From positions 1-53,719 of IMG/VR virus record IMGVR_UViG_3300025704_000035: a DNA stretch of 53,719 nt. One strand, written 5' to 3'. Position 1 is the stretch's first letter; each line of letters starts with the position of its first letter. Source of the DNA: a virus. Positions 1 to 53,719 of this stretch are shown in pieces. The notes under the pieces were generated by a model. It was given only the letters and a program-made list of their open reading frames with translations, was not told where the DNA came from and did no database searches. Both the position numbers and the translations under genes were made by a program.

Positions 1-367
1 GGGTCTCTTCCCAGTTCTCGTAAAACTCGAATCGGTCTGCATAATCTGAGGGCGACTCAAAGAAACCACCAACTAACGGGAGGTCTTGCTTACGGTAGTC
101 TTCGTCAGAAAGCATACGACCTGCAATATCAGTTGTCTGGCTACCAAATCGACCCAAGCCGCCAAGGAAATATTCATAAGCATATTGCATCTTATCTGGA
201 TTGATAGACATGGAACCGTCTCGGTACTTGTCACCCCCAGTAGCATCGTTGAGGAACTCAGCCGGAACAGTAAACATCTTGTCGGTTGATCTTCGAGAGT
301 TATAAGCATTGGCTCGCTCAACAAACAATGGGTTTTGCTCTATGTAGATATCACTGCCAAAGAAGTT
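1..367. repeat. Left copy of the near-identical terminal overlap (partner 53353-53719)
   Basis: These 367 bases match 53353-53719 in the same orientation with 9 substitutions and no gaps (about 97.5% identity). Both copies are in the same reading frame of the giant virion protein gene. Only two of the substitutions change an amino acid (Ile/Met and Asp/Glu); the rest are silent. This closes the map to a circle of about 53,352 bp. The mismatches suggest two strain variants were joined in one assembly, rather than an exact terminal redundancy of one virion. Confidence 0.9.
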
Positions 368-3300
368 TTTGTTTGCCATCATATCTAAATGAAGCTCTAG
401 CAGATCAGGATAGAAACCTCTTGCCGCATCTTCCCAGTTATCGCCTGCTGATGGTGCAACAGGTACAAAGTTGAGCAGAAAGTTTTCCCAAAGATGCACG
501 GCAGTTTCATCCATAGTGCTAACACCAAGCGACACTTCTGTGGCAAGTCTGCCTATGTTGGTAAAAAAGTTATAGCCATAAGAGGCTGGTAAGGCAAAGC
601 CTTCTTCATCGTTATACATAAACAAGAGGGATCTGTTCTTGGCATGCTCGGGTAAATCTGCATATCTATTCTCATCGTCTTCGTCATCTTCAGAAGATAA
701 TATGTTCCATGCCGCTAGAGCTACACCAATGGCAACCATACCCATCGCCGCTTGTCTCGCAGTAGTTGTACCCTTTTCGCCCTTACCTTTACCGTCATCG
801 GATAAAGCCTGAGCAATGTTCACGTTACCCTGAACAGCCGCGTTGAAGAACAGGTAACCTGCGTTAACAACCGCAGTGCTTTCGCCTTTACGATTGAAGT
901 TAACGGTTAAGTCTTTTGCTAATGTAGCCGCATCTTCTCTAGGTGCGCCAGCTTTGCGAGCCTCTATATAGGCTGAAAAACGAATTGCGTTTTCTGTTGT
1001 TACGTTAAAGTCTTCAACCCACTTCCCTAAAGCTTTAGCCGCTTGACGAGCAAGTCCTCGCTTCATTTTGTTTTTAAGTATACGCATCTGCTCATCTGTA
1101 TCACGGACAAGCATCATACCCGTAGGCGCTCCGTCTTCTATATATTCTAATATATACTTTTGCATTTCATCGCCCATCTTAGCCGCAACATCCTTGCCAC
1201 GGTAATGACGATACAAAGTTCTCATCGCAGGGAAATATCCTTCAGCCATTTTGCCGATGATATTTTCACCCTGAATGCGACTACCGTTCTTATCCATTTC
1301 GCCCAAGGCATACATCAACCCTGTTTGAACGTCGCGAATAGGGTTAATCAATCCCCATGACGGGTTATAGTTAATAAGCATATTTCGACGGAAAGTCTGG
1401 AATCGAGTCGCCAGTGTTAGAGCTTTATCCATAGCCGAATTAGATCGATCAAATGCATCGACACTCATGTTTTGTAGTGAGTGGTTTAAAGCGTCACTTT
1501 TAAACTCAACAAAGAATGTCTGTCCACCCTTCTTAACCTGTACATATTTCGGCTCACCATTTGGACGGGTATCTCTCTCCATCTCTTTAAGATCTTGCTG
1601 AGTAAGCTCGTCACTATCTTTCATGGGGCGGAACTTGTTGTTATATATCGTATAGGAGTCGCTGTTACCCAGTTCGCTAAGAAGATCTAATAAGGTTTGG
1701 GCGTATTCATTTTTTCTCGCCCGAATAATTTTTTTCTGGATATCTTCAAACGACTGCATCAAAGGGCTCATAGGTAGCGTCTTACGACCTCTAGCCTTTA
1801 AGCTTTCGCTTCCTACTACAGAGTAACCACGAGCCTTAGACGCTCTTACAAACTGATCTCCATCTGCCTCCGCCGCAAAACCCTTCAGTGGAACGTAAAA
1901 CCTGAAGGTATCTTCCCAGTCCTCTTTAGAAGCCTGATCTAGCAAGCCCGATTCAACCATTCTGCTTCTGGCGGCATCATGCATCTCATAAACCATGGAT
2001 GCGATACGCTCTAAATCTGCTTGAGTGCCTTCTTGCTCTGCAATCTTGAGTACCTTTCGAGCTTCCACATAGGTCATGCCTGAACCGGTATCTTGAAAGG
2101 CTAAAGGTAGATCATTGTATTGCTTAAGTTTTTCCCTGAGGTTAGCAATTTGCACAGAGTGATCAACACCCGCATCCTCTTCTAGCTTAGCAATTGCCTG
2201 TTCTGTTCGGGCTATATTTTTAGCGCGTTGCGCGGCTACCTTCTCGGCAATAACGTCGTTACGCTCTTCAGCATGTTTAGCTATAAGATAGGTGTCCACA
2301 GCATCAACTGTGTAACCTAGCTCTGCAATAACATCACCTAAAGGATCGACAAATTCAGCGTGAAAGTTATCAAGATCAGTCTGGACCCGACCATGAGATA
2401 AGTTTTCCTGATCACGTGGAGATATAGCCGCAGGCAGTCTACCTACGTTTAAGTATTCTGCCGCCTGCATTTCAAAGTCTTCAAGTCGTGCATATCGATC
2501 AACAAGACTTCTATAGATAGCTTTGTCTTTTAGTCTTCTTACTAGGTCAGACTGTGAATCTATTTCATCGTTGTAAGAAAATTGGCTTGTAGATGGTGAT
2601 CCGTCATCTAGCTTGTTCAACTCTTTGTTGATTTGCTTTTTCTTAATAAAGGCAAAGTCTTCTACGTCAGCGTACTTAGCATCCTTAACAATGACTAAGT
2701 TACCTACCTGTATAGCTTCACTGAAACTCTCGACAGGTTGCTGTTTCTCTAGGTCGTAGTAGAAAGAATGACGCTCAGGATTCATCGATACCTGAGTCCA
2801 CTCTGGATCCTTAACAAACTTTTTAAAGTCAGCAACATTCTGTTCATGTGTAAGAGCTGTGCCATCTTCCTTCTGCCCTACATAATCACCTTCCATTGTG
2901 GCTATAGTGTTCTTGTCTGCACCAAGAGCAATCTTAACTGCTCCTTTTTCTGGTACAGCGAACACACCATTTTTGAGACGAATGGTTGGATAGTAACCAA
3001 GACGCTTACCAGCTGAACCTGCTTTAGCATTAGGTCTGGATACATGAACAGTAACTATGTCTGCTCGCTCATCTTTGGCTAGCGTTTTACTGTTGTATGA
3101 AGGAATGTCTAAGCGAGAGCCGTAACGTACACCATGCTCTAAAACGTCCGCTTTCCAGTACGTTTCTTTGGTTGGTGTATTGGGCTTCTCTCTATTTGTT
3201 TTCTTTAGAGCATTAACAAACTTTTGTTCTGATGGTAGCTCAGGAACCATGTCTGCTGTCATAGGTGCAACAAAGCGACCCTGATCTTCAAATACCTGAT

Positions 3301-6300
3301 TCAGTTCTTCTGCTGTTATGTCTCTATCTATACGAGACTGTACGGCATCCTTCATTGTTTGATTGATTCGGTTTTGTTCGGGGCGGATTCTTTCTTCCCC
3401 GCCTCGCTGAATTTTTACAGCGTCGTCATAGCTTTCTGCTACAACGCCATCTTCCCTAGAGTACTTACCAAAGTACTCTGGGTTGTGACGCATAAAGACA
3501 ACATCAGGTTCGCCGCCTTTAAACATGGCAAACGTTTTCTTGTCCCATCCATCTGGCGCTTGAGAGTCATCCCACTTAATACGTGAGACAGCCTCGAAGC
3601 CTAGGTTCTTATAAATATATGGAAGAGTGGTATCAAAAGCATCCAAATACTTTGCTCCGTCCTCTATTGCCAGTGACCCTAAGGCGTATGTAGTGTTTGG
3701 ATTTGTGCCATCGCTAAATAGTGAAACGATCTCGTCACCATTTCTTAATGCCAACCCTGCCGTACCGTCGTCAGTGACGTACAGGGTCATATCTTGATAG
3801 TCGGACTCTGGGTAAACATACACCGACGCACCAAAGCGTGAAGACTCTTTAGACGCTTTGATTTTATCGCTAAAGAATTTAACCGTTTCTGGTGTGCTTT
3901 CTAGCTCTAGAACTGTTCGTGAGTAGCTGTCTACTGATGCGAGATCCTGAGCAACTGACGGCTCTAACTCTCGCTTATAGGCATTGAACGTTTGACCGTC
4001 TAGGTCAACTTGAGCATATCCACTAGGTCTTGCTCTGAAGCGTCTGGGTAGTCCGCCTTGATTTCCTCTACCGTCTCCCTGTACGCCTCTGGAACCACGA
4101 AGCCTGTTGTAGGTTGCGATTCTTCTGCGCTGTCCGCTGATATCGGTTGCGTCGTAGTCAGTAGCTCTTTCAGGAGCATACTCTCTTTCAACTGCCTTTC
4201 TTTCAGCGTTAGATTCGACGAGGGCGTCGAGCTTTTGTCTGTCAACTTGTTCTGCTTCATACCAAGGAGATCCTTTATCGTAGTCGGTTACCTTGAAACC
4301 TTTAGGTATTACACCGTTCTTAGACTTTTTAACTTCTTTTAAGAAGTCGCCAAATTGTTTAGTGCTAAACTTGTAAACATCACCGTTAGACTTTGAGTAT
4401 AGTATATACGGGTTTGTATCTTCATCTCTAGCGTAGATAGCACCAAATCTATAAAGGTCACCCTTACCTTCAGGAGCGCCCAAGAAAGCATAAGGACTAT
4501 CTTCACCCTTAGCATCTTTCTCAAGACCCTGCATTGTCGGGTGAGCAACAACCTGCCCTGAATTTAATACCCAACTTTCCCAGTGATAGCGACCAACAGA
4601 AGCATCTTGCTCTCTGCCTAGCCCTTTATATAGGTCTGTGATTTTTGTTTGAAGAGCATTCTCCAAAGCCTCATATCTTGCTAGCCCATGGAAGCCACTG
4701 AACTCATCAGCAATGTCATCATAAATTAACTTGCCGTAACGTCCAGAATCCCACATAGAGTTAAGCTGTATGCGGTCTAAGATAACCACATCATCTCTAC
4801 CCATCATCAGCATCATGAAAGAGAATACTTTGTTGTCTATTCCAGAGCCCTGCACTTGAGCTTGGAACTGACGGCGTACCTCAAAAGACGGAATGCTTGA
4901 ATCTGCTAGCGTGTTATGTAGGTTTTGAAGCTTAGATACACCGTCAACCTGTTCGCTCATCTTCATTAGAAGCGGAAAGAAATCATTGGCATTCGAGGTT
5001 GCGCTCTTACCAAAGGATCCCTCGGGTATAGCGGTCTTAACTTCAGCTATCCATTTGCCTTTGTCATTAGCGTCGATGGTTCCATTTAGAGTTTTCTGAA
5101 TCAGATCCTGAGTCATCTCAGTACCTGTTACAAGATCAACGTATGCCGCCTCTTGAGAGCTAGCAGTTAGTCTTCTAGACAGTAATCCCCACAACAATAA
5201 CTTAGCCGTTGTATCAGGGGTTGCAACACCATTAGCGTATAACTCACCCATTCTTTTCGCAGTATCTAAGCCATTCTTGGCGGCTAATCTTTGCTCTGTA
5301 GTTAACTGAGAGTGACGGTCAACCCATCCATCCATGTTATTGAACAGGTTGATTAAGCCATACGGGGGTGCTAAGTGTGTGTTTTGACCAGTAAGCGATC
5401 TTTCAAACGAGCGCCAAGCATCAGTGCTACTGAGTGCATTGGGGTTACTATCGATGATTGTTTGAAGTCTGCGAATGCTTTCTTCTGCATTCTTGGGGTT
5501 GAGCTTCTTAACAGGAACTTGCTTCTTATCCGAAACATCTCCCTTGGAATCTTCTAATAAATACTCTGCGCCTTTCTTAATGAATCCCATATCATCAAGA
5601 TCAGAAAGGTCGTCATCAATTAAGTCAGCATCGTCGTCTAGATCACCAAGCTCTTGTTCCACCAACTTGGCTTCTTGTTCTTGCTCGATCTCGTTTAGGA
5701 TGTCTTGTTGAATAAACTTGTCGCCATTCATCACAACTAAGTCTTCCGCCTCTACATCTTTATCAAGCAATTGTTCTTTAAGGTTTTCAAATTGGTTGTC
5801 TTCTAGACGCTTAAACTTCTTACGAAGAGTTTTCTCTGTAGCACCCTCTTTGTCAGCAATAAACGACCACGCATCAGTGACAGTGTCTTTGCTTACAAGA
5901 GGATCTAGCGGGGTGTTGTATGATTTTTCTCCCGCCTCAATTAATTTTGCGCGGTGATCCACGATAGCTTGTATCGCATCATTCTTAGTTTCGCCTAGGT
6001 ACTCGACCTTACCATCTAGCGACTCTAACTCTGTAGCGTCGCCAACCTCTGCGGCATAGTCATCGTAATAAACTCGGTATCTGTCACCATCAGGAAATGC
6101 AACTAAGTACTCTCCTGTATCTTCGTAGTTCTCAGATTTTTTGAATCGCGGTTTTTTGCTGTGCGGTTTGAGGGTTACTTCGGTGCGTGGCTCTTCAGCT
6201 ACGACAGGTTCTTGTACCTCTGGTCGTTCACGTTCCCCACCTTCGTCTTGCTCCGATCTCTCCATTGAGGTATCGGCTCGTTCTTGGCTAGCGCTTCCTT

Positions 6301-8932
6301 CGCTATCTGATCTAGCTGGGGTAGGCTGAACTGCCTCGAGGCTTCCGGACTCTGGCGGTGCCCGAACTTGTCCTGATATTCCTGAAGGTTGGGTGGTGTT
6401 TTGGGGGCTGACACTACTCGACGGTTCATCTTGTACCTCTGCCTGTGCAGTCTGTAAGTTTTTGTCACGTATATCTTTTATGTAATTATACGCCTGTGGA
6501 GCAAATTCTTGTAGTTGTTTTGGGTTGCTGTGAAACATTGCCCCAAGCTGAGCAAAGACCTCTTCTCTATATGTGGTGTTTAAACTCTGGTTATCCTGCT
6601 CAAGATCAGCAATGTCTATTTTTAGATCATTAAAAGGATAGTCAAAGCGTTTCCCGAGGTCTGTTCCTTTCTCCCAATTATCATAGATCTCTTCCATGAT
6701 ATCGCCCATAACAACCGTTGGTGCCTCAGCATCGTCTTCAATTGTTATATCGAACCGCGAGTCTTTATCACTTAATCCGTAAGCATAGTCTGCCGCATGG
6801 TAAACCTCATGGGTCATTGTCCATGCTAACTCACGCAACTGTTCTTGATCTGTCATAGCGCCGTCAATCAACTGCGTGTTAACAGATATTCCTCTGCTAC
6901 CTTTTCCTGTAAGAGCTGGTGCAGTTACATCCTGATCCGTATGAACAAACACACCTGAAACTGCATCTACAAATGACGTGGGAACACCCTGTGCTGACAG
7001 GTCAGCCATCACACCACCTATGGTGTTTGTCACTGCCTCTGACTTATCACCGTATACCTCTTCAACTGTTGGTAAGCTTTTACCTTTTGGTTTAGCGGCA
7101 GTTCCAATTTTAAGGGTTTCGTTTCTATCGAAAACTCGGTCAATGTCGTCTTGATCAATTGGCTCAACCACAACATCGGTATTGTTTGGGTCTAGTGCTT
7201 CAGGAGTTTGCGCTACTCTTGACACCTCTAGAAGCTGATCTTGCACAGGGGTAGATGCATCTGTAAGTGAAGCATCCCACTTATGCTCGTGACCATACTC
7301 TCGAGCGCCTTCTGGCACCTCTCTAGCACCAAGTACTGGAGCTGATGGAGAATCACCCACCTCATCCGCAACCGGTTCCTGAATAACGCTCTGCTCTTCT
7401 ACTACCGTGTTAGCTTGTTGAGTGTCGCCATCGCCAAGATTTATCGAGCCACTATTGCTAGGCTCTGTGTAGGTTATGGATAGATCATCACCCTTGCCTA
7501 AATCAACGTTTAGGTTTGCAGGGTTGAAGTCATCTCCGTACTGAATCTTTAGCTGTTCAGTCGCCTGATCTATGTTTTGTTGTTGGACAGGATTTGGAGT
7601 CTGCTCTATAACTGACACACCTGTTACACGACCATCAGAATCTACTGTGGAAATTGTTGTTCCGTCATTATATTTGTTAAAGGTGTCTGCAATGTACTGT
7701 CTTCGTTCTTGCGGTGTAGCGTCTGGGGTTACATCGCGCATAGCGTCGAAGTTTGGAGCATTATCCAACTGATCGTATCCGCCTCTAGCTTTTTTAACAG
7801 AAGCAGAGGCAGTGCCTATGGCTTTACCACCCATAACGCCTGCCGCAACGCTATTAATTAATCCACTTCGTTTGTTCTCGTTTGCAATGTAGTCCATATA
7901 CTCAATTGCTTCTTTCTCTGTGAAGTTGTTATTCACATAAGCAACTGTTTCCTGCTCGACAATAAACTGAAGACCCTCTGTCATACCCTCTATGCCACTG
8001 ACCTTTCCAATGTCTTTAAGATATTCTTTGACCCAAGGCTTGTTTACTCCCGCCTGTAAAACCTCAATTGCTTCGCCTCTCAGGTTCGCAGGAATCATGT
8101 TTTCTAAAACTTTAAAGGCAGGAATTGCGTTTAGTCCACCCTGAACAAGACCTGAGGTTAAGGAGATGAAAGGCGCCTCTTCACCGGTATCTGTCAATAC
8201 CTTCGCAAATGTATTACCTGAACCCTGCGCGGTACCATAAACTACAGCACCGGCTGTTCCGGCTTTTAGAGATATCTGTTTTAGTTTAGCTTCCGCGAAC
8301 TTTTCAGCAACATCTGCGGCTACCTTATCCGCCGCCTCTTTTTCAAATCCGTCTTTAACAAGCTGATCTCTTCCGTTCTGCACATACTTATCAGCAAGCT
8401 TTTTAATTGATGCTTTAGCGCCTGCTTTTGCAATAGCTGATCCGGCGCCCATAGTTCCAACAGCACCAACTAAATCTGGAACCAGTGTACCTAAGGTATA
8501 TGCTGACCATGCCCCAAAATCTGCAATGCTGTTAATATCCTCAACCTTCATTACATCACCGGCTGATTCCTTGGCTTCAGCAGTTTGCTCTTGGTAGTAA
8601 GCCATACCCTCCTTGACCCACTCTTCTTTGCCAAACGCTGAGCCTGCTAAGGCTTTTAAGCCCCCGCCTAATGCTTGCGTTTGATCTATGCCGGCGCTTA
8701 GACCGCGAGTAAAGTTGTTAGGTTGACCGTCAAGCTGTGGAGCTTGATCAGGTTCACGAGTATAGGTTCCCGATAAAGGATCTGAGTTATCGGCGGATGT
8801 AGGGTCCGTAATGGGATCTGGGTTCAGTGCAGGATCTAGAGTTTCTGTTGGCGACTGGGCACCTTCCAGCTCCTCATAGACGTCCTCGTAATACCCTTGC
8901 TTTGAATACAGCTTTACCGAATTAAGTGGCAT
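1..8932 (-). CDS. Giant polyvalent internal virion protein, N-terminal ~2,977 residues (open at window edge)
   Basis: Open minus-strand frame from ATG at 8932 to the window edge; the C-terminus is the 53051-53719 piece in the same frame, giving about 3,077 aa once the circle is closed. Visible parts: a Gly/Ala-rich, partly hydrophobic region (residues ~80-330); a zinc-metallopeptidase motif HEVYH at residues 708-712 with a later YREEVFAQLGAMF helix that could give the third ligand; a long acidic, low-complexity linker; a GNAT-like fold near residues 1710-1830 (pattern LYVTDDGTAGLAL); long coiled-coil stretches; and a segment like large-polyvalent-protein domain LPD38 near residue 2680 (NFNRKG...GYLFFNAAVQG). 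Last gene of the internal-virion-protein run. By analogy with T7 gp16 and N4-like giant proteins it is probably ejected with the DNA. The family role is inferred; the open frame and the HExxH are seen. Confidence 0.85.
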   Translation of the reverse strand, partial: MPLNSVKLYSKQGYYEDVYEELEGAQSPTETLDPALNPDPITDPTSADNSDPLSGTYTREPDQAPQLDGQPNNFTRGLSAGIDQTQALGGGLKALAGSAFGKEEWVKEGMAYYQEQTAEAKESAGDVMKVEDINSIADFGAWSAYTLGTLVPDLVGAVGTMGAGSAIAKAGAKASIKKLADKYVQNGRDQLVKDGFEKEAADKVAADVAEKFAEAKLKQISLKAGTAGAVVYGTAQGSGNTFAKVLTDTGEEAPFISLTSGLVQGGLNAIPAFKVLENMIPANLRGEAIEVLQAGVNKPWVKEYLKDIGKVSGIEGMTEGLQFIVEQETVAYVNNNFTEKEAIEYMDYIANENKRSGLINSVAAGVMGGKAIGTASASVKKARGGYDQLDNAPNFDAMRDVTPDATPQERRQYIADTFNKYNDGTTISTVDSDGRVTGVSVIEQTPNPVQQQNIDQATEQLKIQYGDDFNPANLNVDLGKGDDLSITYTEPSNSGSINLGDGDTQQANTVVEEQSVIQEPVADEVGDSPSAPVLGAREVPEGAREYGHEHKWDASLTDASTPVQDQLLEVSRVAQTPEALDPNNTDVVVEPIDQDDIDRVFDRNETLKIGTAAKPKGKSLPTVEEVYGDKSEAVTNTIGGVMADLSAQGVPTSFVDAVSGVFVHTDQDVTAPALTGKGSRGISVNTQLIDGAMTDQEQLRELAWTMTHEVYHAADYAYGLSDKDSRFDITIEDDAEAPTVVMGDIMEEIYDNWEKGTDLGKRFDYPFNDLKIDIADLEQDNQSLNTTYREEVFAQLGAMFHSNPKQLQEFAPQAYNYIKDIRDKNLQTAQAEVQDEPSSSVSPQNTTQPSGISGQVRAPPESGSLEAVQPTPARSDSEGSASQERADTSMERSEQDEGGERERPEVQEPVVAEEPRTEVTLKPHSKKPRFKKSENYEDTGEYLVAFPDGDRYRVYYDDYAAEVGDATELESLDGKVEYLGETKNDAIQAIVDHRAKLIEAGEKSYNTPLDPLVSKDTVTDAWSFIADKEGATEKTLRKKFKRLEDNQFENLKEQLLDKDVEAEDLVVMNGDKFIQQDILNEIEQEQEAKLVEQELGDLDDDADLIDDDLSDLDDMGFIKKGAEYLLEDSKGDVSDKKQVPVKKLNPKNAEESIRRLQTIIDSNPNALSSTDAWRSFERSLTGQNTHLAPPYGLINLFNNMDGWVDRHSQLTTEQRLAAKNGLDTAKRMGELYANGVATPDTTAKLLLWGLLSRRLTASSQEAAYVDLVTGTEMTQDLIQKTLNGTIDANDKGKWIAEVKTAIPEGSFGKSATSNANDFFPLLMKMSEQVDGVSKLQNLHNTLADSSIPSFEVRRQFQAQVQGSGIDNKVFSFMMLMMGRDDVVILDRIQLNSMWDSGRYGKLIYDDIADEFSGFHGLARYEALENALQTKITDLYKGLGREQDASVGRYHWESWVLNSGQVVAHPTMQGLEKDAKGEDSPYAFLGAPEGKGDLYRFGAIYARDEDTNPYILYSKSNGDVYKFSTKQFGDFLKEVKKSKNGVIPKGFKVTDYDKGSPWYEAEQVDRQKLDALVESNAERKAVEREYAPERATDYDATDISGQRRRIATYNRLRGSRGVQGDGRGNQGGLPRRFRARPSGYAQVDLDGQTFNAYKRELEPSVAQDLASVDSYSRTVLELESTPETVKFFSDKIKASKESSRFGASVYVYPESDYQDMTLYVTDDGTAGLALRNGDEIVSLFSDGTNPNTTYALGSLAIEDGAKYLDAFDTTLPYIYKNLGFEAVSRIKWDDSQAPDGWDKKTFAMFKGGEPDVVFMRHNPEYFGKYSREDGVVAESYDDAVKIQRGGEERIRPEQNRINQTMKDAVQSRIDRDITAEELNQVFEDQGRFVAPMTADMVPELPSEQKFVNALKKTNREKPNTPTKETYWKADVLEHGVRYGSRLDIPSYNSKTLAKDERADIVTVHVSRPNAKAGSAGKRLGYYPTIRLKNGVFAVPEKGAVKIALGADKNTIATMEGDYVGQKEDGTALTHEQNVADFKKFVKDPEWTQVSMNPERHSFYYDLEKQQPVESFSEAIQVGNLVIVKDAKYADVEDFAFIKKKQINKELNKLDDGSPSTSQFSYNDEIDSQSDLVRRLKDKAIYRSLVDRYARLEDFEMQAAEYLNVGRLPAAISPRDQENLSHGRVQTDLDNFHAEFVDPLGDVIAELGYTVDAVDTYLIAKHAEERNDVIAEKVAAQRAKNIARTEQAIAKLEEDAGVDHSVQIANLREKLKQYNDLPLAFQDTGSGMTYVEARKVLKIAEQEGTQADLERIASMVYEMHDAARSRMVESGLLDQASKEDWEDTFRFYVPLKGFAAEADGDQFVRASKARGYSVVGSESLKARGRKTLPMSPLMQSFEDIQKKIIRARKNEYAQTLLDLLSELGNSDSYTIYNNKFRPMKDSDELTQQDLKEMERDTRPNGEPKYVQVKKGGQTFFVEFKSDALNHSLQNMSVDAFDRSNSAMDKALTLATRFQTFRRNMLINYNPSWGLINPIRDVQTGLMYALGEMDKNGSRIQGENIIGKMAEGYFPAMRTLYRHYRGKDVAAKMGDEMQKYILEYIEDGAPTGMMLVRDTDEQMRILKNKMKRGLARQAAKALGKWVEDFNVTTENAIRFSAYIEARKAGAPREDAATLAKDLTVNFNRKGESTAVVNAGYLFFNAAVQGNVNIAQALSDDGKGKGEKGTTTARQAAMGMVAIGVALAAWNILSSEDDEDDENRYADLPEHAKNRSLLFMYNDEEGFALPASYGYNFFTNIGRLATEVSLGVSTMDETAVHLWENFLLNFVPVAPSAGDNWEDAARGFYPDLLELHLDMMANKNFFGSDIYIEQNPLFVERANAYNSRRSTDKMFTVPAEFLNDATGGDKYRDGSMSINPDKMQYAYEYFLGGLGRFGSQTTDIAGRMLSDEDYRKQDLPLVGGFFESPSDYADRFEFYENWEET

Positions 8933-36466: not shown

Positions 36467-36496
36467 TTGACAGATTATTTTCTGCACCTGTATATT
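36467..36496 (+). promoter_or_regulatory. Strong sigma70-type early promoter
   Basis: TTGACA at 36467-36472, an 18-bp spacer and TATATT at 36491-36496, inside an AT-rich region. Transcription would start near 36503, at the first stem of the structured leader RNA, and run rightward through the early operon. Consensus -35, near-consensus -10. Confidence 0.8.
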
Positions 36497-36500
36497 AGTT

Positions 36501-36845
36501 GGCAAGTGCTCAAACGGCACTTCGGATACGAGGTCTCCGACATGACCTGCCACCTTCGGGTGAACACGAAAGCTTCGGCGAGTAGTGGTCTTCAAAGCAC
36601 AGCGGTTGGGTGCGAGTCGGGACAGAGCCCCTGCCGCTCTTCAAAGGTGCACGGTTGGAGATAGTGAAAGCCAGAATGAGTTCTGAGCGAGTAGCGAGCC
36701 TCCTGCAAGGAACGCAATCAAACGACCGACTGGGTGGGCTACCTACCTAGGAAAGCTACGGCGAGTACGACCCAGTCGAGTTGATTTGATAGAGCCGCCA
36801 CGTTGGAGGTTCTACAAAATCAATTCTTACCCTGAGGAGGGCACC
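36501..36845 (+). ncRNA. Structured early leader RNA (~340 nt, unknown class)
   Basis: No credible gene between the promoter and the ATG at 36846, but dense potential pairing. Stems: AGTGC/GCACT (36505/36517), GCAC-AGCGG with CCGCT...GTGC (36597-36605 with 36634-36638 and 36647-36650), CGACTGGGT/ACCCAGTCG (36727/36770), TTGATTT-TAGAGCC with GGTTCTA-AAATCAA (36781-36796/36808-36823). The module GAAAGC-cap-GCGAGTA occurs three times (36568, 36666, 36751); its cap is TTCG, a full hairpin (CAGAA-TGAG-TTCTG) or TACG. GAA facing AGTA resembles bulged-G (sarcin-ricin) loops. The motif TCTTCAAAG also appears twice. I do not recognise the class; candidates are an RNA that modifies host RNA polymerase (like HK022 put) or a new regulatory RNA. 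Confidence 0.7.
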
Positions 36846-37019
36846 ATGGATATTCAAGTAGAAATAAAAAGCATTTACGGTCAAGAAAAGATCTACCCAC
36901 TATGCCTAGCAGGCGAGACATTCGCTCAGATAGCAGGCACCAAAACATTAACCACTGAGACTATCGCACTGGCTAAGCGCCTAGGCTATCAATTCATTAT
37001 TAAACAACGGGGGATCTGA
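36846..37019 (+). CDS. Small conserved phage protein, 57 aa
   Basis: Starts at the ATG after CCTGAGGAGG; the longer frame runs into the leader hairpin. Pattern: IKSIYGQEKIYPLCLAGETFAQIAGTKTLT..TI..AKRLGY, which I have seen as a small conserved protein in early regions of marine phages. First gene after the leader RNA. Function unknown. Confidence 0.75.
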   Translation: MDIQVEIKSIYGQEKIYPLCLAGETFAQIAGTKTLTTETIALAKRLGYQFIIKQRGI

Positions 37020-37271: not shown

Positions 37272-37328
37272 CTCAACTGATGAGGCTAGCGGGGGTTAGC
37301 CGAAACAGCCCTTCGGGGTTGTCTTGAG
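37272..37328 (+). ncRNA. Type I hammerhead ribozyme 1
   Basis: Stem I CTCAA/TTGAG (37272/37324), core CTGATGA 37277-37283, stem II GGCTAGC/GTTAGCC with a GGGG loop, core GAAA 37302-37305, stem III closed by a TTCG tetraloop, cleavage triplet GTC with the cut after 37323. The loop Gs can pair with ACCC at 37329-37332 just after stem I. Lies between the 76-aa gene and the ArdC-like gene. Confidence 0.93.
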
Positions 37329-37361
37329 ACCCATATAATTAATCCTGAGGAGGATAACAAC

Positions 37362-38240
37362 ATGGCTAAATTTGAAGATATTTTTCAAGAAGTTACAGAC
37401 CGAATCATTGATGGTTTGGAAAATGCTGATGACTGGCGCAAGCCTTGGAAATCACTGTTCGATGGTTCAGTACCGCATAACGCATCTACTGGCAGACCAT
37501 ATAGCGGTGTGAATTTCCTTAACCTATCGTGGGCATCCAAGAAATGGGGTGCTTCTGGTTGGGTTACCTACAAGCAGGCGCAAGCCCTTGGCGGTAAGGT
37601 TCCCAGTAAAAGCGCATCAAACGGGGGCTGTGAGTATGTTTGGTTCATGGCTCGCAGTGTCTATAAAGATAAGCAGACTGGTGACGATAAAGTCGGCTTT
37701 ATAAACAAATGCTTCTCAGTCTGGAATGTTAACCAGATCGAATGGGAAGAAGGCAGTAAACCTTACAGAGAATACACCCCACCAGTATCTGGTACGGGTG
37801 CAGTCAATGTACTGGCTGAGAGCCTAGATATTGATCTGCAATATCAGGGTGATGTTGCATGCTTCATCCCTTCAGTAGATGTTATCAAGATGCCTTCTGC
37901 TGAGGCGTTCAAAACCCCTGAAGACCATGACGCCACACTGGCTCATGAGTTAGTGCACTGGACTGGTCATAAAGACCGACTCAACAGAAAGATCCTGAAC
38001 AGCAAGGGTGGTGAAGATTACGCCTTTGAGGAACTGGTCGCTGAGTTGGGTGCGGCTTTTGCAGGCTCCCTACTAGGTATTCCCTACGAGGGGCTACAGC
38101 ATGAGAAGTACATCAAGAGTTGGCTTAAGGCGTTAAAGAATGATCCTAAACATATCGTAAAGGCATCTGCTCAAGCGTCCAAAGCTGTTAACTATCTTAA
38201 TGATAACGGCTCCCTACAGATTGTAGACATAGCCGCATAG
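37362..38240 (+). CDS. ArdC-like antirestriction protein with zinc metallopeptidase domain
   Basis: 292 aa. N-terminal ArdC-type ssDNA-binding domain (WRKPWKSLF..., ASTGRPYSGVNFLNL, WVTYKQAQALGGKV), then a polyvalent metallopeptidase domain with HELVHWTGH (H195, E196, H199, H203) and FEELVAELGAAF (Glu-228 as possible third ligand). Such proteins are thought to shield incoming DNA from restriction. Preceded by CCTGAGGAGG downstream of hammerhead 1 and followed by a terminator hairpin. Confidence 0.85.
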   Translation: MAKFEDIFQEVTDRIIDGLENADDWRKPWKSLFDGSVPHNASTGRPYSGVNFLNLSWASKKWGASGWVTYKQAQALGGKVPSKSASNGGCEYVWFMARSVYKDKQTGDDKVGFINKCFSVWNVNQIEWEEGSKPYREYTPPVSGTGAVNVLAESLDIDLQYQGDVACFIPSVDVIKMPSAEAFKTPEDHDATLAHELVHWTGHKDRLNRKILNSKGGEDYAFEELVAELGAAFAGSLLGIPYEGLQHEKYIKSWLKALKNDPKHIVKASAQASKAVNYLNDNGSLQIVDIAA

Positions 38241-38241
38241 G

Positions 38242-38279
38242 TTGGGGGGTGTTGGGTTTTTCCCGCGCCCCAATTTTTT
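38242..38279 (+). terminator. Intrinsic terminator after the ArdC-like gene
   Basis: TTGGGG (38242-38247) pairs with CCCCAA (38268-38273), enclosing an inner GGG-TTTTT-CCC hairpin, and T6 follows at once. It lies inside the early operon, 17 nt before the next start codon, so downstream genes need read-through or antitermination. Confidence 0.75.
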
Positions 38280-38295
38280 ACCTGAGGAGGTAATC

Positions 38296-38451
38296 ATGAC
38301 TGAAGATCAACTGATACAAAACGTTAAAAACGTAATCCTTGAGTGGGCGTTCGAGGAGATCGAAGAAAACCCTGACAGCGACATTACCTTGGAGGATCGG
38401 TACTGCCAGAACAGGGATTCAATACTTGACGTCCTGAAAGAAAAGCTCTAG
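38296..38451 (+). CDS. Early protein of unknown function, 51 aa
   Basis: Start chosen at the ATG after CCTGAGGAGG; the longer frame would begin inside the terminator. Acidic, helical (VILEWAFEEIEENPDSDITL). Its TAG stop forms part of stem I of hammerhead 2. No domain recognised. Confidence 0.65.
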   Translation: MTEDQLIQNVKNVILEWAFEEIEENPDSDITLEDRYCQNRDSILDVLKEKL

Positions 38452-38505
38452 CTGATGAGTACTGGGTAGTGCCCAGTCGAAACACTGGTTCGCCAGTGTC
38501 CTAGA
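38447..38505 (+). ncRNA. Type I hammerhead ribozyme 2
   Basis: Stem I TCTAG/CTAGA (38447/38501), CTGATGA 38452-38458, stem II ACTGGG/CCCAGT with loop TAGTG, GAAA 38479-38482, stem III ACACTGG-TTCG-CCAGTGT, cleavage triplet GTC with the cut after 38500. Loop TAGT can pair with ACTA at 38508-38511. The upstream gene's stop codon is inside stem I. Confidence 0.93.
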
Positions 38506-38530
38506 TAACTAATCCTGAGGAGGATCTATC

Positions 38531-38938
38531 ATGGCTACATTGCAACAGAAAAACATCCACCCTGCACTGTCCCTGACTTGGGATTTATTGACAGACCCTG
38601 TGATCAACCCTACACGCAAAGCGAGACTGCGTCAGGATGCACGGCGCTATCAATACAGCGACCGCCTAGCTACTCGCATTGAACTCAATCAACACATTGA
38701 GTACTGCAAGACCGCAGACGGTTTTATTTATATCGAGAACTTCTCTCGAGACTGTGACAACTGCGAACGTACATGGGTAGAGAAGATACCCGCTCACATC
38801 ACAGCCCTCACGGTACACGAGAACCGACTGCAAAAAAACGCAGAGGGGATCACCTACTGCTCCCTGATCACTAAAGCGCAAGCAAACAAATTCAAACCCT
38901 CATTTCGTGATCGTAACGCAGAGCGTGGCTGGTACTAA
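38531..38938 (+). CDS. Early protein of unknown function, 135 aa
   Basis: Basic N-terminal half (PTRKARLRQDARRYQYSDRLA) and a CDNC-type pair (RDCDNCERTW) that might bind metal. Preceded by CCTGAGGAGG, 26 nt after hammerhead 2. No family recognised. Confidence 0.65.
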   Translation: MATLQQKNIHPALSLTWDLLTDPVINPTRKARLRQDARRYQYSDRLATRIELNQHIEYCKTADGFIYIENFSRDCDNCERTWVEKIPAHITALTVHENRLQKNAEGITYCSLITKAQANKFKPSFRDRNAERGWY

Positions 38939-38949
38939 CTTTATACTAA

Positions 38950-39006
38950 TCCAACTGATGAGACTAGATAGTTACTGGTCGAAACACCCCCTGTGGGTGT
39001 CTTGGA
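38950..39006 (+). ncRNA. Type I hammerhead ribozyme 3
   Basis: Stem I TCCAA/TTGGA (38950/39002), CTGATGA 38955-38961, stem II GACTAG/CTGGTC with loop ATAGTTA, GAAA 38981-38984, stem III ACACCC/GGGTGT, cleavage triplet GTC with the cut after 39001. Loop TAGTT can pair with AACTA at 39008-39012. Confidence 0.93.
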
Positions 39007-39034
39007 AAACTAATAAGACCTGAGGAGGTTAATC

Positions 39035-39577
39035 ATGAGCAATTCCAAATTTCACTTAGATAAAAATGCAATCCATTTGCTTAAAGAGTGCAACGAGTTG
39101 GCATGGCGTATGTCTGGTCGGGTCGAAGAACTTTTTAACGACTTGCATGGCACGTCAGTACCCCGCTCTGTTAGAGATGAGATTGAGATTCTTGAGCAGT
39201 ACCTAAACAAGGTAATCAATCAGACCACAGAAGCCCTAGACGCTGATCGTGAGATTGACGGTGAGTGTGTCCATGCTTACTGCCCTAACCCAACCAACAT
39301 AGAAGCCTATGGCTTAAAGGTTGAGAGGTATCTGCCCAGTAACTGGGAGGTATCAGATATAACACCTGACACTGTTTATATTCGTGGTCATAACACCTGC
39401 CGCACTGATGGAGAGCGTGAGTTCGAGCACTACTTACAGCCACGGCTAACGTCAGGCTTGATTCACTCTGTGCTTGCAACCGCTGAAGAAGTAGCGAAGC
39501 GTGCCCAAGGTGAGCGAGACAATCTTGAGGATGGGTGGGTTCAAACAAACGACATAAGGCACCAGTTACCGTGTTAA
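39035..39577 (+). CDS. Early protein of unknown function, 180 aa
   Basis: Helical N-terminal half (LLKECNELAWRMSGRVEELF; IEILEQYLNKVINQTTEAL), then a mixed region with CVHAYCPNPTN and YIRGHNTCRTDGERE. The Cys/His residues could bind metal but make no known finger. Preceded by CCTGAGGAGG after hammerhead 3. No domain recognised. Confidence 0.65.
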   Translation: MSNSKFHLDKNAIHLLKECNELAWRMSGRVEELFNDLHGTSVPRSVRDEIEILEQYLNKVINQTTEALDADREIDGECVHAYCPNPTNIEAYGLKVERYLPSNWEVSDITPDTVYIRGHNTCRTDGEREFEHYLQPRLTSGLIHSVLATAEEVAKRAQGERDNLEDGWVQTNDIRHQLPC

Positions 39578-39578
39578 A

Positions 39579-39634
39579 TCCAACTGATGATCGCAGTTAG
39601 TTACTGCGTGAAACACCCTTCGGGGTGTATTGGA
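39579..39634 (+). ncRNA. Type I hammerhead ribozyme 4
   Basis: Stem I TCCAA/TTGGA (39579/39630), CTGATGA 39584-39590, stem II CGCAGT/ACTGCG with loop TAGTT, GAAA 39610-39613, stem III ACACCC-TTCG-GGGTGT, cleavage triplet GTA (allowed by the NUH rule) with the cut after 39629. Loop TAGTT can pair with AACTA at 39636-39640. Confidence 0.92.
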
Positions 39635-39658
39635 AAACTAAACCTGAGGAGGTTGTAT

Positions 39659-39946
39659 ATGTATTTCATAACTAAACTAAACGGCGATCGAGTGCCCAGT
39701 CGATATGGTCTGGTGCATTACGTGAGTCTGTCCAGACTGTGTGACTATAGCTACCCTAACGTTAAGGATGGCATAAGCTATCTGGTATATAAGAGTGAAT
39801 TAGATCGCAGTGATGGCAAAGCCCATGGCGTCTATGTTACTGAGGGCGGAAAGTTGGTGCGCGATAAACGCAGATCAGCATTACGCAAAATACACGATCT
39901 ATTCAGGGGGCGCAGTATCGATGAAATTACCTACGCCCCACTTTGA
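39659..39946 (+). CDS. Early protein, 95 aa (paralogue of 40148-40390)
   Basis: Start chosen at the ATG after CCTGAGGAGG; the longer frame runs back through hammerhead 4. Begins MYFITKLNGD, then LSRLCDYSY, VYVTEGGKLVRD and IHDLFRG. These line up with MAYYISKLDP, VKRLCDAKH, TYVSQNGKLKPV and IGNLF in the gene at 40148, so the two look like diverged duplicates. Function unknown. Confidence 0.65.
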   Translation: MYFITKLNGDRVPSRYGLVHYVSLSRLCDYSYPNVKDGISYLVYKSELDRSDGKAHGVYVTEGGKLVRDKRRSALRKIHDLFRGRSIDEITYAPL

Positions 39947-40136
39947 CATTAACACTATGCTTCACCGCAAGGTGCGGTATGTCCTACAGAAACCTGACGC
40001 CCTGCATGATGCCCTGCTACAAATTGTAACTTTGGGCAAATCGGATTGGGATCAGCAAGAGTGGGACGCACTGGTTGCCGATATCGAATCATCCGACCTT
40101 ACAGTTGGTGAATACATCAAGCCCTACAGAACCTGA
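39921..40136 (+). CDS. Early protein of unknown function, 71 aa
   Basis: Starts at the ATG at 39921 after AGGGGG, overlapping the end of the upstream gene by 26 nt. Acidic and helical in the second half (WDQQEWDALVADIESSDLTVGEYI). A longer frame upstream would be an overlap product. No domain recognised. Confidence 0.6.
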   Translation: MKLPTPHFDINTMLHRKVRYVLQKPDALHDALLQIVTLGKSDWDQQEWDALVADIESSDLTVGEYIKPYRT

Positions 40137-40147
40137 GGAGGTTAACC

Positions 40148-40390
40148 ATGGCTTATTACATTAGCAAGCTAGACCCTATAGATGGATCAGTATCACCGTT
40201 CGCTAGAGTAGTCAAACGATTATGTGATGCAAAACATCTAGCTGACGATGAGGTGTGTGCGGTATTCAAAAACCGCAGAGACTTCTCTGAAAAGTGGATC
40301 TACAAAACCTATGTGTCGCAGAACGGTAAACTTAAACCCGTGACAAGACATGACATCCCGAAACAAATCGGAAATCTGTTTTCTCTCTAG
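40148..40390 (+). CDS. Early protein, 80 aa (paralogue of 39659-39946)
   Basis: MAYYISKLDPIDGS, VKRLCDAKHLADDEVCAVFKN and YVSQNGKLKPVTRHDI match the pattern of the gene at 39659. Preceded by CCTGAGGAGG. Its TAG stop lies in stem I of hammerhead 5. Function unknown. Confidence 0.65.
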   Translation: MAYYISKLDPIDGSVSPFARVVKRLCDAKHLADDEVCAVFKNRRDFSEKWIYKTYVSQNGKLKPVTRHDIPKQIGNLFSL

Positions 40391-40440
40391 CTGATGAGCA
40401 CTGGATGGTTACCAGTCGAAACGCCGTGAGGCGTCCTAGA
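40386..40440 (+). ncRNA. Type I hammerhead ribozyme 5
   Basis: Stem I TCTAG/CTAGA (40386/40436), CTGATGA 40391-40397, stem II ACTGG/CCAGT with loop ATGGTTA, GAAA 40418-40421, stem III ACGCC-GTGA-GGCGT, cleavage triplet GTC with the cut after 40435. The loop has GGTT where others have AGTT, and the downstream strand has AACC (40442-40445) where others have AACT: a compensating change. Confidence 0.93.
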
Positions 40441-40487
40441 AAACCGTTACAATTGCGTGTATATTAATTTCCTGAGGAGGATACATT

Positions 40488-40793
40488 ATGAAACAAGCAC
40501 ACTTACACCTTATTCAATGGGGTTTAGATCAGGGCTACATCATCGAGGTAGACATCGAGGGTGAGGCTGAGTATCGAGGCAAAAGCTACAAAGAAGCAAA
40601 AGATGCTAGCGAAGCGGGTGAGACAGGCTGTATATACCTAATTACTGGCACGGGTGATACAGATTATGCGTGGTTTGGATATCTTCACGACTACGACCAG
40701 AAGCCCGATGAAAAGATTTACGACTATGGCATTTGTGCCGTATCTGAATCGTGGCAGAAAGCCTACGACCAACACTGCTCTCAAGCCGCATAA
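40488..40793 (+). CDS. Early protein of unknown function, 101 aa
   Basis: Acidic (pI well below 5) with HLIQWGLDQGYIIEVDIEGEAEY and a Tyr/Asp-rich C-terminal half (DTDYAWFGYLHDYDQ). A strongly acidic early protein could mimic DNA, but no family is recognised. Preceded by CCTGAGGAGG after hammerhead 5 and followed by a terminator. Confidence 0.65.
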   Translation: MKQAHLHLIQWGLDQGYIIEVDIEGEAEYRGKSYKEAKDASEAGETGCIYLITGTGDTDYAWFGYLHDYDQKPDEKIYDYGICAVSESWQKAYDQHCSQAA

Positions 40794-40821
40794 CCACCCC
40801 CACAATAAGTAACCACCATAA

Positions 40822-40843
40822 AGCCACCTTCGGGTGGTTTTTT
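40822..40843 (+). terminator. Second intrinsic terminator inside the early operon
   Basis: CCACC-TTCG-GGTGG stem-loop (40824-40837) followed by T6. A good intrinsic terminator, 46 nt upstream of the next start codon. As with the one at 38242, genes downstream would need read-through or antitermination. Confidence 0.85.
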
Positions 40844-40888
40844 AGTGCTTATTTAATTATCAAAAACCAATATCCTGAGGAGGATTTT

Positions 40889-41224
40889 ATGAGTTTATAT
40901 TTAGTAAAAAGTGAAGTACGCGATGGTGGTTATGAATACCATGACAAGTTTATCCTGCTAGCAAGTAGCGGCGGAATATCGCTCGAACTACCTCAAAACA
41001 TCAATGCAATTTTGACGGCATGGGAGTTTGGGTTGACTGTCAAACATGTTGAAGAGTCAGGTGATGAGGTTTGGGCTGACTGTCGGCTGGTTTATTGCAA
41101 CACCTGCGGAACCATATCAAATGAAAACTACAACGTCATTAAAGAATACCTGAACGTGATTAATCTTGAGTACATTTTAGGTGATGTCGAATATGGCGAT
41201 GAGCGTGATCAGGAGGTGGCGTAA
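40889..41224 (+). CDS. Early protein of unknown function, 111 aa
   Basis: Start chosen at the ATG after CCTGAGGAGG; the longer frame crosses the terminator. Contains CRLVYCNTCGTISNENYN with a CNTC pair, and an acidic C-terminus. Its last base is the first base of the next gene. No domain recognised. Confidence 0.65.
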   Translation: MSLYLVKSEVRDGGYEYHDKFILLASSGGISLELPQNINAILTAWEFGLTVKHVEESGDEVWADCRLVYCNTCGTISNENYNVIKEYLNVINLEYILGDVEYGDERDQEVA

Positions 41225-41391
41225 TGGATAACCCATTTGCAGATATCGCCCAGTGGGAGCGCTACTGGGATATGAGCGACCTTGAACGTGTCCGTGAGGA
41301 TGAGCAGGAGCAGAAAAAGAAAGAAGCGACCGAGCAAAAATGGGCTAATCGCTTTAAGTTAGGTATTCAAGACGAATGCGAACAATACTAG
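41224..41391 (+). CDS. Small charged early protein, 55 aa
   Basis: MDNPFADIAQWERYWDMSD, then a highly charged helix of Glu, Gln and Lys and FKLGIQDECEQY. The ATG overlaps the upstream stop (TAATG), and GGAGG of its ribosome site lies in the upstream gene's end. Probably a coupled helical mini-protein; role unknown. Confidence 0.65.
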   Translation: MDNPFADIAQWERYWDMSDLERVREDEQEQKKKEATEQKWANRFKLGIQDECEQY

Positions 41392-41399
41392 GAGGTGCT

Positions 41400-41588
41400 A
41401 TGCCTATATATCAAGTAACAACTAAAGAGGTCTGCCTTAACACCTATGAGGTGGCGGCTAGATCCAAGGAAGATGCTATCAGCTCTTATTATGAGCAGTT
41501 GAACTCGCGTCAAATAAAAAGCGTTAGCAGTGATGAGAGTGTTATTTCAACACTTGAAGTATTTCCAACTGATGAGTTGTCGAGGTAG
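41400..41588 (+). CDS. Small early protein, 62 aa, whose 3' end encodes a ribozyme core
   Basis: Starts at the ATG after GGAGGTGCT. MPIYQVTTKEVCLNTYEVAA, then a helix and VFPTDELSR. The codons for PTDELSR contain the CTGATGA core and half of stem II of hammerhead 6, so protein and ribozyme are read from the same bases. The YQVTTKEVCLNTYEVAA.SKEDA pattern recalls small phage proteins of unknown role. Confidence 0.7.
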   Translation: MPIYQVTTKEVCLNTYEVAARSKEDAISSYYEQLNSRQIKSVSSDESVISTLEVFPTDELSR

Positions 41589-41656
41589 TCCCTCGATCGA
41601 AAGTCTAAGTACACAATAGGTAATCTTTTTTACCCTTTGTGTATTTGACTCTTGGA
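41564..41656 (+). ncRNA. Type I hammerhead ribozyme 6 (extended stem III)
   Basis: Stem I TCCAA/TTGGA (41564/41652), CTGATGA 41569-41575, stem II TCGAGG/CCTCGA with loop TAGTC, GAAA 41599-41602, then a long stem III: AGTC/GACT, ACACAA/TTGTGT and GGTAA/TTACC. Cleavage triplet CTC with the cut after 41651. Loop TAGT can pair with ACTA at 41659-41662. The 5' part overlaps a coding region. Confidence 0.88.
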
Positions 41657-41682
41657 TAACTAAAAAACCTGAGGAGGTTTAT

Positions 41683-42135
41683 ATGTCTAACAATAATGTT
41701 TATTTAAGAAGTAAAAAGGTTAAAAGAATTGGCGGGAAGGATATTGTTTTGTTCTCTCATGCCTACAATCATGAGGTATCTGTCTTAGCTAAAGAGAAGT
41801 ACTACGGCAGTGAATCGCATTATGACCGAGTGGTAAATCAGCGTGAAAATAAAGCTATGAAATACTGCGAAACACAGAAAGATATAGGGTATATGGTTCT
41901 GTGTGACAACTGGACTAGTATTGGGTTGCATTACGATTTATCAAAACCATGCTTAAACCCAGTTTATATAATAGAGCCTCATGACTACTACATTCGCGAG
42001 GGCACTCAACTTCCACCTATTGCAGGCTTTGTTTCCCGTAGTGGTTATCAGTACCGTTTTATAGCTTTTGAAGATGCCTGTGAACCTTGGAAGCAAAAAT
42101 ACCCAGAGCAGATTAAAAGAAATGCTTTCACCTAA
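41683..42135 (+). CDS. Early protein of unknown function, 150 aa
   Basis: Basic N-terminus (LRSKKVKRIGGKD), then a mixed region with YNHEVSVLAKEKYYGSESHYDR and YIIEPHDYYIRE. Preceded by CCTGAGGAGG after hammerhead 6. The stop codon lies in a perfect 8-2-8 inverted repeat. No domain recognised. Confidence 0.65.
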   Translation: MSNNNVYLRSKKVKRIGGKDIVLFSHAYNHEVSVLAKEKYYGSESHYDRVVNQRENKAMKYCETQKDIGYMVLCDNWTSIGLHYDLSKPCLNPVYIIEPHDYYIREGTQLPPIAGFVSRSGYQYRFIAFEDACEPWKQKYPEQIKRNAFT

Positions 42136-42643: not shown

Positions 42644-42733
42644 GGTGACGGCTCACCTGAGGAGGGTATAGGCACAGGGAATACAGTGCCGAGCCGCCGC
42701 CCCTATCATAACCCTACAGTACCCACGGAGTAA
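42644..42733 (+). promoter_or_regulatory. Structured gap with an orphan ribosome site and two exclusive folds
   Basis: CCTGAGGAGG (42656-42665) is present but no ATG, GTG or TTG follows at normal spacing. Fold A: GGTGA-CGGC-TCACC (42644-42657). Fold B: CGGCTC (42649-42654) with GAGCCG (42691-42696), enclosing the ribosome site and a GGCAC/GTGCC hairpin (42671/42686). The folds compete for the same bases. A 15-codon frame from GTG 42686 ends just before the next gene. Confidence 0.45.
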
Positions 42734-53050: not shown

Positions 53051-53719
53051 CTACTTCCCCTCAGCCTTTCGGTATGCCTTGTTAAAGATATCAAAGATCT
53101 TGTTTTCATTAACTTCAAGCTCTTCAAGTAACTTTCTTCTTTTCTCCTCTCCTAATGAGCCGGCACCGTAGTTCTGTTTCTCAACCATTTTTCTTGTTTT
53201 AGAGATCCTTCTAAGGTCTCTGTTTGCCAGCTCGTAAAGATTCTTACCGTTATACTTGGGGTTAAGTAGCGGGATGAAATCTTTAAACTCTGTCTGAAGT
53301 CTAGCCACTTCCGTCACGTCTGTAGCTTCTTTAAATCTAGTTACAATTTTACGGGTCTCTTCCCAGTTCTCGTAAAACTCGAATCGGTCTGCATAATCTG
53401 AGGGCGACTCAAAGAAACCACCAACTAACGGGAGGTCTTGCTTACGGTAGTCTTCATCCGAAAGCATACGACCTGCAATATCAGTTGTCTGGCTACCAAA
53501 TCGACCCAAGCCGCCAAGGAAATACTCATAAGCATATTGCATCTTATCTGGATTGATAGATATGGATCCATCTCGGTACTTATCACCCCCAGTAGCATCG
53601 TTGAGGAACTCAGCCGGAACAGTAAACATCTTGTCGGTTGATCTTCGAGAGTTATAAGCATTGGCTCGGTCAACAAACAACGGGTTTTGCTCTATGTAGA
53701 TATCACTGCCAAAGAAGTT
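53051..53719 (-). CDS. Giant polyvalent internal virion protein, C-terminal 222 residues (open at window edge)
   Basis: Enters from the right edge and stops at 53051. Its frame is continuous with the 8932-1 piece once the 367-bp overlap is merged. The C-terminus is charged and helical, with RDLRRISKTRKMVEKQ and EEKRRKLLEELEVNENKIFDIFNKAYRKAEGK. This is the tail of the same ~3,077-aa protein, not a separate gene. Confidence 0.85.
   Translation of the reverse strand, partial: NFFGSDIYIEQNPLFVDRANAYNSRRSTDKMFTVPAEFLNDATGGDKYRDGSISINPDKMQYAYEYFLGGLGRFGSQTTDIAGRMLSDEDYRKQDLPLVGGFFESPSDYADRFEFYENWEETRKIVTRFKEATDVTEVARLQTEFKDFIPLLNPKYNGKNLYELANRDLRRISKTRKMVEKQNYGAGSLGEEKRRKLLEELEVNENKIFDIFNKAYRKAEGK
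53353..53719. repeat. Right copy of the near-identical terminal overlap
   Basis: Matches bases 1-367 with 9 substitutions. Relative to the left copy the encoded protein differs at two residues only (Ile for Met, Asp for Glu), which shows purifying selection between the two versions. Confidence 0.9.

Follow-up and report, generated by a model that had tools for sequence, protein, structure and literature searches.

Phage T7 begins its early region with an anti-restriction gene (0.3, Ocr). The early polycistronic RNA of this phage is cut by RNase III at about five intergenic sites, giving mono- and dicistronic messenger RNAs (PMC4858673). Many clusters of hammerhead ribozymes flanking individual prophage genes, including ardA, have been reported (Perreault et al. 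2011, PMC3088659); that paper proposes the processing of polycistronic phage RNA into single-gene or operon-length messages and describes how three arrays were cleaved in the test tube (in vitro) and one, around ardA, in Escherichia coli. The start-associated sequences of Cluster K mycobacteriophages place a conserved Shine-Dalgarno repeat before many small genes, and about half of them have a second, inverted-repeat element upstream (PMC3203893). The present analysis concerns an array of six type I hammerheads in the DNA of IMG/VR virus record IMGVR_UViG_3300025704_000035, positions 1 to 53,719 (the window, 53,719 nucleotides (nt) in all), where the ribozymes lie among the genes of a presumed early cluster that includes ardC.

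The early transcript of this ardC-headed cluster is probably processed by its own hammerheads into independent messages of one to four genes; a probability of roughly 0.6 is given to this reading. The closest functional analogue is the T7 early RNA, which is also cut between genes; there, however, a host protein makes the cuts and leaves 5′-phosphates, whereas self-cleavage of the present RNA would produce 5′-hydroxyls. The clusters of Perreault et al. are alike in having multiple hammerheads around single genes or short blocks, an anti-restriction neighbour and pseudoknots. An earlier note on this DNA had presented the array as a distinct expression strategy; that main idea is not new, because hammerhead clusters with transcript processing appear in the published account. 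Compared with the portion of that paper used here, which makes no mention of ribosome sites, the window is unlike in its uniform cassette of type I hammerhead, pseudoknot and covarying Shine-Dalgarno hairpin, repeated in arrays of six to eight, in having a single slot where type I, type III and terminator-like elements replace one another, and in its gene, ardC rather than ardA. As far as the literature shows, the novelty lies in the cassette arrays, in the exchange of elements at a single slot and in the ardC setting, which occurs in two phage lineages. The 13-base-pair sequence and inverted repeats of Cluster K phages, unlike the elements described here, have no ribozyme reported with them, and their letters are unrelated.

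Type I hammerheads were sought on both strands with a descriptor comprising CUGANGA, stem II, GAAA, stem III, an NUH triplet and a stem I of at least four base pairs, together with folding-energy limits. In its strict form the descriptor returned exactly six matches in the 53.7-kb window, the same six that the earlier note had picked out, all within 4.4 kb and none elsewhere; 30 dinucleotide shuffles gave two matches in total (about 0.07 per shuffle). The type I arrangement of three helices with stem I open is borne out by covariation in all three. The core CUGANGA...GAAA with A15.1–U16.1 is present in 6/6 and invariant in all 47 aligned relatives, which bears out the conserved core claimed before. 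The NUH triplets (GUC four times, GUA and CUC) and the first bases of the predicted 3′ products, given below, likewise coincide exactly with those named earlier.

37272–37328, + strand: hammerhead 1, type I, GUC; predicted cut before 37324; GGG of loop II pairs with CCC of the tail
38447–38505, + strand: hammerhead 2, type I, GUC; predicted cut before 38501; upstream stop UAG within stem I
38950–39006, + strand: hammerhead 3, type I, GUC; predicted cut before 39002
39579–39634, + strand: hammerhead 4, type I, GUA; predicted cut before 39630
40386–40440, + strand: hammerhead 5, type I, GUC; predicted cut before 40436; stop UAG in stem I; GGUU of loop II pairs with AACC of the tail
41564–41656, + strand: hammerhead 6, type I, CUC, with a long stem III; predicted cut before 41652; its 5′ part overlaps the end of gene 41400–41588

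The stop codon of the upstream gene sits inside hammerheads 2, 5 and 6. Where an upstream stop was identified, it is no more than 20 nt beyond the start of the core and always ahead of the predicted cut; the placement between genes proposed earlier stands, each predicted cut coming after one gene's stop codon and ahead of the ribosome site that follows. Two related loci (L036, 2649–2771, and L039, 4072–4194) also have type I hammerheads with a very long stem III, of about 80 nt.

The elements share their core, three helices and type I topology with the Rfam families Hammerhead_1 (RF00163) and RAGATH-1-hammerhead (RF03152), but score under both gathering cut-offs. Hammerhead_1 gives 23.8 and 20.6 bits for two of them and 32.8 bits for the best relative; its gathering score of 34 bits is a model cut-off and not a structural feature. 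As no named Rfam family exceeded its threshold, membership was tested with the descriptor above and with a covariance model built for the element, and it is the identity of the core, together with comparison among relatives, that carries the case. In the covariance-model check suggested in the earlier note, the Rfam matches stay below threshold, and the purpose-built model gives six strong matches in the window (E 7e-18 to 1e-10). Hammerhead 6, absent from the training set, still scores E 1e-10, and the array of L033, likewise outside that set, is also recovered; the next-best match in the window (E 0.003) covers only the Shine-Dalgarno hairpin. A match to Rfam Hammerhead_II at 18.8 bits, made of GAAA and a CUGAGGA within the Shine-Dalgarno sequence, was rejected as chance, its stems not fitting.

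Relatives were gathered with a pattern of hammerhead core plus CCTGAGGAGG, which yielded 23 viral stretches, and with an ArdC protein search, which yielded 34 loci. The proposed pairing holds in 95.4% of the cells in an alignment of 47 distinct elements, and in at most 46% once the partners are slid. Double-sided changes among the 47 relatives affect 5/5 pairs of stem I, 5/6 of stem II, 4/6 of stem III and 4/5 of the pseudoknot. The latter joins loop II to the 3′ tail and constitutes the tertiary contact of the stem I and stem II regions; the complementarity of loop and tail scores 210 against 158.7 ± 6.3 with tails permuted (maximum 179 in 2000 permutations), a difference somewhat inflated by the kinship of the sequences. 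In each of six relatives (L028–L033) the locus has an array with six to eight hammerheads at conserved positions. The hammerheads of the window are 80–97% identical to their orthologues in L031/L032, with flanks at 64–82%. Among the listed loose-pattern matches in bacterial-genome stretches, the strict descriptor passed two, both weak and chance-like; loose-pattern matches in L182, L183 and L185–L187 were dropped because they did not pass the strict descriptor.

The array is closely tied to the ribosome sites that follow it. The earlier note had put CCUGAGGAGG 20–40 nt beyond the cleavage sites; it actually starts 13–35 nt past them (20, 13, 17, 13, 35 and 16 nt for hammerheads 1–6). It is also more than a plain ribosome site, being a covarying hairpin such as AUCCU-GAGG-AGGAU, a feature that had been missed along with the exchange of slot elements among relatives. 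The flanks of CCUGAGGAGG are complementary in 53 of 66 distinct cases, against 17.6 expected on permutation (maximum 30), and the mean energy of the hairpin is −5.65 as against −3.96 kcal/mol. In L033 an internal pair has changed as well, giving AAUCU-GAGG-AGAUU. The window holds 11 copies of CCTGAGGAGG, all on the + strand; ten stand ahead of gene starts, six of these being preceded by a hammerhead, and one is an orphan at 42656. The orphan (42656–42665) has no start codon close behind it and lies in a conserved non-coding stretch also present in L003, L012 and L015. The hairpins include the following.

36831–36840, + strand: hairpin of the first gene (36846–37019), preceded by a leader and by no hammerhead
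37344–37353, + strand: hairpin of ardC, AUCCU-GAGG-AGGAU
38514–38523, + strand: hairpin of gene 38531–38938
39019–39028, + strand: hairpin of gene 39035–39577
39643–39652, + strand: hairpin of gene 39659–39946
40132–40141, + strand: hairpin of gene 40148–40390, with no element upstream
40471–40480, + strand: hairpin of gene 40488–40793
40874–40883, + strand: hairpin of gene 40889–41224, directly after the second intergenic element (EL2, below)
41668–41677, + strand: hairpin of gene 41683–42135

What occupies the slot before the Shine-Dalgarno hairpin varies among related phages: a hammerhead of type I or of type III, or EL2, a second intergenic RNA element, whose place in the window is as follows.

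40809–40873, + strand: EL2, terminator-like hairpin in the same slot as the hammerheads

Type III hammerheads gave eight matches, all directly upstream of the hairpin, and none in a 1.77-Mb control; a pattern search adds 17 contig stretches with type III hammerheads in the slot (this position is seen in L034–L039 and L188–L200). The element ahead of ardC orthologues is type I in the window, L028–L033 and L041, type III in L036 and L037, and EL2 in L035 and L038. Since different elements stand ahead of orthologous genes, and types I and III leave different letters while both would cut, the cut itself is likely to be selected; this suggests that selection acts on cleavage, that is, on end formation, and not on one RNA fold. 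Two ribozyme classes were seen earlier in similar places near genes of Mu-like phages (PMC10085705). The exchange, sometimes ahead of orthologous genes, is a natural experiment for telling a need for cutting apart from a need for this particular fold.

EL2 has the form AGUAA-NAC-internal loop-hairpin-GUN-UUNAUU, the hairpin being followed by GUNUUNAUU before the same Shine-Dalgarno hairpin, and it recurs in L008, L010, L018, L034, L036, L038 and L039. Its AGUAA often contains the upstream stop codon. Rfam has no entry for it; its alignment is judged poor because a one-column slide of the pairs scores equally well.

The presumed transcript start and the features around ardC are as follows.

36467–36496, + strand: sigma-70-like promoter, TTGACA-N18-TATATT, with 11 of 12 consensus bases, the best in the region; presumed start of the early transcript
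36503–36830, + strand: structured leader RNA of about 330 nt, folding z −2.8
37362–38240, + strand: ArdC-type anti-restriction protein of 292 amino acids, ArdcN plus zincin-like metallopeptidase
38241–38280, + strand: G+C-rich terminator-like hairpin with a T tract, recognised from its sequence, between ardC and the next Shine-Dalgarno hairpin

The promoter hexamers and the 18-nt spacing are kept in L012, L015/L031 and L017/L030. The leader contains three GAAAGC-hairpin-GCGAGTA modules (36568, 36666 and 36751) and aligns across seven loci (window, L004, L010, L012, L015, L017 and L018), best in its 3′ third; it has no match in Rfam up to E 10 and is perhaps an antitermination or regulatory RNA. 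Hairpins resembling that at 38241–38280 also occur in L015 and L017. Both domains of ArdC are recognised by Pfam (ArdcN, E 2.8e-19; MPTase-PolyVal, E 4.1e-38), and the protein matches the anti-restriction family PHROG 7245 (E 1.5e-58). It is the only recognisable product of the cluster, whose early genes probably serve anti-defence. Ribozyme clusters had already been linked to anti-restriction genes in print, and the association recurs here with a different gene; looking for ribozyme punctuation might therefore lead to other early anti-defence genes.

On the proposed mechanism, the early transcript would begin at about 36503 and be cut by its own hammerheads during synthesis. With every cut placed 3′ of the upstream stop codon, and 13–35 nt ahead of the Shine-Dalgarno hairpin that follows, all reading frames would stay intact. 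The 3′ products would carry a 5′-hydroxyl and a short tail, followed by the hairpin exposing GAGG in its loop; the 5′ products would terminate in stem III with a 2′,3′-cyclic phosphate. The products would serve as independent messages of one to four genes: the fragments between consecutive predicted cuts hold 2, 1, 1, 3 and 4 genes, at odds with the single-gene messages envisaged in the earlier note. RNA with a 5′-hydroxyl is a poor substrate for 5′-end-dependent RNase E, and E. coli seemingly has no kinase for hammerhead 5′ ends (PMC4191395); the new 5′ ends would probably be shielded from phosphate-dependent RNase E decay. The whole would be a protein-free counterpart of what RNase III does to the early RNA of T7, acting on early genes headed by ardC. 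What the sequences establish is the motifs, with their covariation, conservation, placement and exchange for other elements; that they are cleaved in cells, that the genes are co-transcribed and early, and that the messages are stabilised is inferred. Self-cleavage and 5′-hydroxyl ends at the six sites are predictions from the letters, and the array supplies six exact predicted 5′ ends.

Several points weigh against this reading. The Rfam scan of the window brought 0/6 elements to gathering score. Hammerhead 4 has U-U in place of the usual G-C as the first pair of stem II, and minimum-energy folds computed without the pseudoknot prefer other structures for hammerheads 1, 2, 5 and 6. Since four of the ten gene-starting Shine-Dalgarno hairpins lack a hammerhead, not every gene can depend on cutting. 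The stabilisation of the messages would follow from E. coli biochemistry, which may not be that of the host. Terminator-like hairpins (38241–38280 and 40809–40873) lie inside the cluster and argue against one uninterrupted transcript; of the single operon assumed in the earlier note, one conserved promoter (36467–36496) keeps the idea plausible and these hairpins speak against it.

In another reading the slot serves to make 3′ ends, the hammerheads and terminator-like hairpins insulating or down-regulating distal genes and the downstream 5′ end being a by-product. Gene 40889–41224 fits this: in the window it follows the terminator-like EL2, whereas its L032 orthologue follows a type I hammerhead. 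On the other side, RNA polymerase is not halted by a hammerhead, and the close, covarying association with the Shine-Dalgarno hairpin suggests a downstream function; this reading is rather unlikely. A further idea is riboregulation, in which the folded, uncut hammerhead would mask the Shine-Dalgarno sequence and cutting, or the blocking of it by a terminating ribosome or a ligand, would unmask it, each ribozyme controlling its downstream gene. In most elements the pseudoknot tail indeed stops only a few bases short of the hairpin, and upstream stop codons are often in or beside the core, where a terminating ribosome would disturb folding. Yet the unpaired probability of GAGGAGG is 0.36–0.57 uncut and 0.53–0.57 cut, with a shift only in hammerhead 4 (folding without the pseudoknot), the hairpin is retained even where there is no hammerhead, and no conserved aptamer-like domain is seen; such control is unlikely.

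The exchange of elements bears on two further ideas. The slot could be a dedicated 5′-end-making site fillable by any self-cutting RNA, with EL2 or the 330-nt leader as a new class of self-cleaving or specifically processed RNA, a proposal that must be called quite improbable. Alternatively, the units of hammerhead and Shine-Dalgarno hairpin may be mainly cassette borders at which homologous recombination shuffles early genes, with cleavage incidental. Slot elements do differ among orthologous genes, hammerhead 3 is a different one in the near-identical relative L028 (84% identity) although its flanks there are 99% identical, and genes for Sak and RecE-like recombination proteins are present in the phage. 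The bases, however, are not conserved as a repeat but covary in keeping RNA pairs, and the catalytic core is retained; this reading is very unlikely. Self-processing of the early transcript remains the preferred reading.

A remote lineage of ArdC phages (L055–L059, about 37% identity) is a second, separately organised case of ardC with hammerheads, which bracket the gene without this Shine-Dalgarno hairpin. These are different type I hammerheads, and most of their 3′ products start with a small hairpin. No hammerhead occurs around ardC in six phage records (Pelagibacter HTVC011P, Roseobacter CRP-804, Caulobacter BL57 and three Manatee Spring records).

A search of 50,697 phage records found no DNA similar to the window. 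As a phage genome the window is essentially complete, its termini overlapping by 367 base pairs at 97.5% identity; besides the recombination proteins, a terminase, an SU10-type portal, a capsid protein and a tyrosine integrase are recognised. A giant reading frame of more than 2977 amino acids spans the joined ends (window 2–8932 plus 53051–53719).

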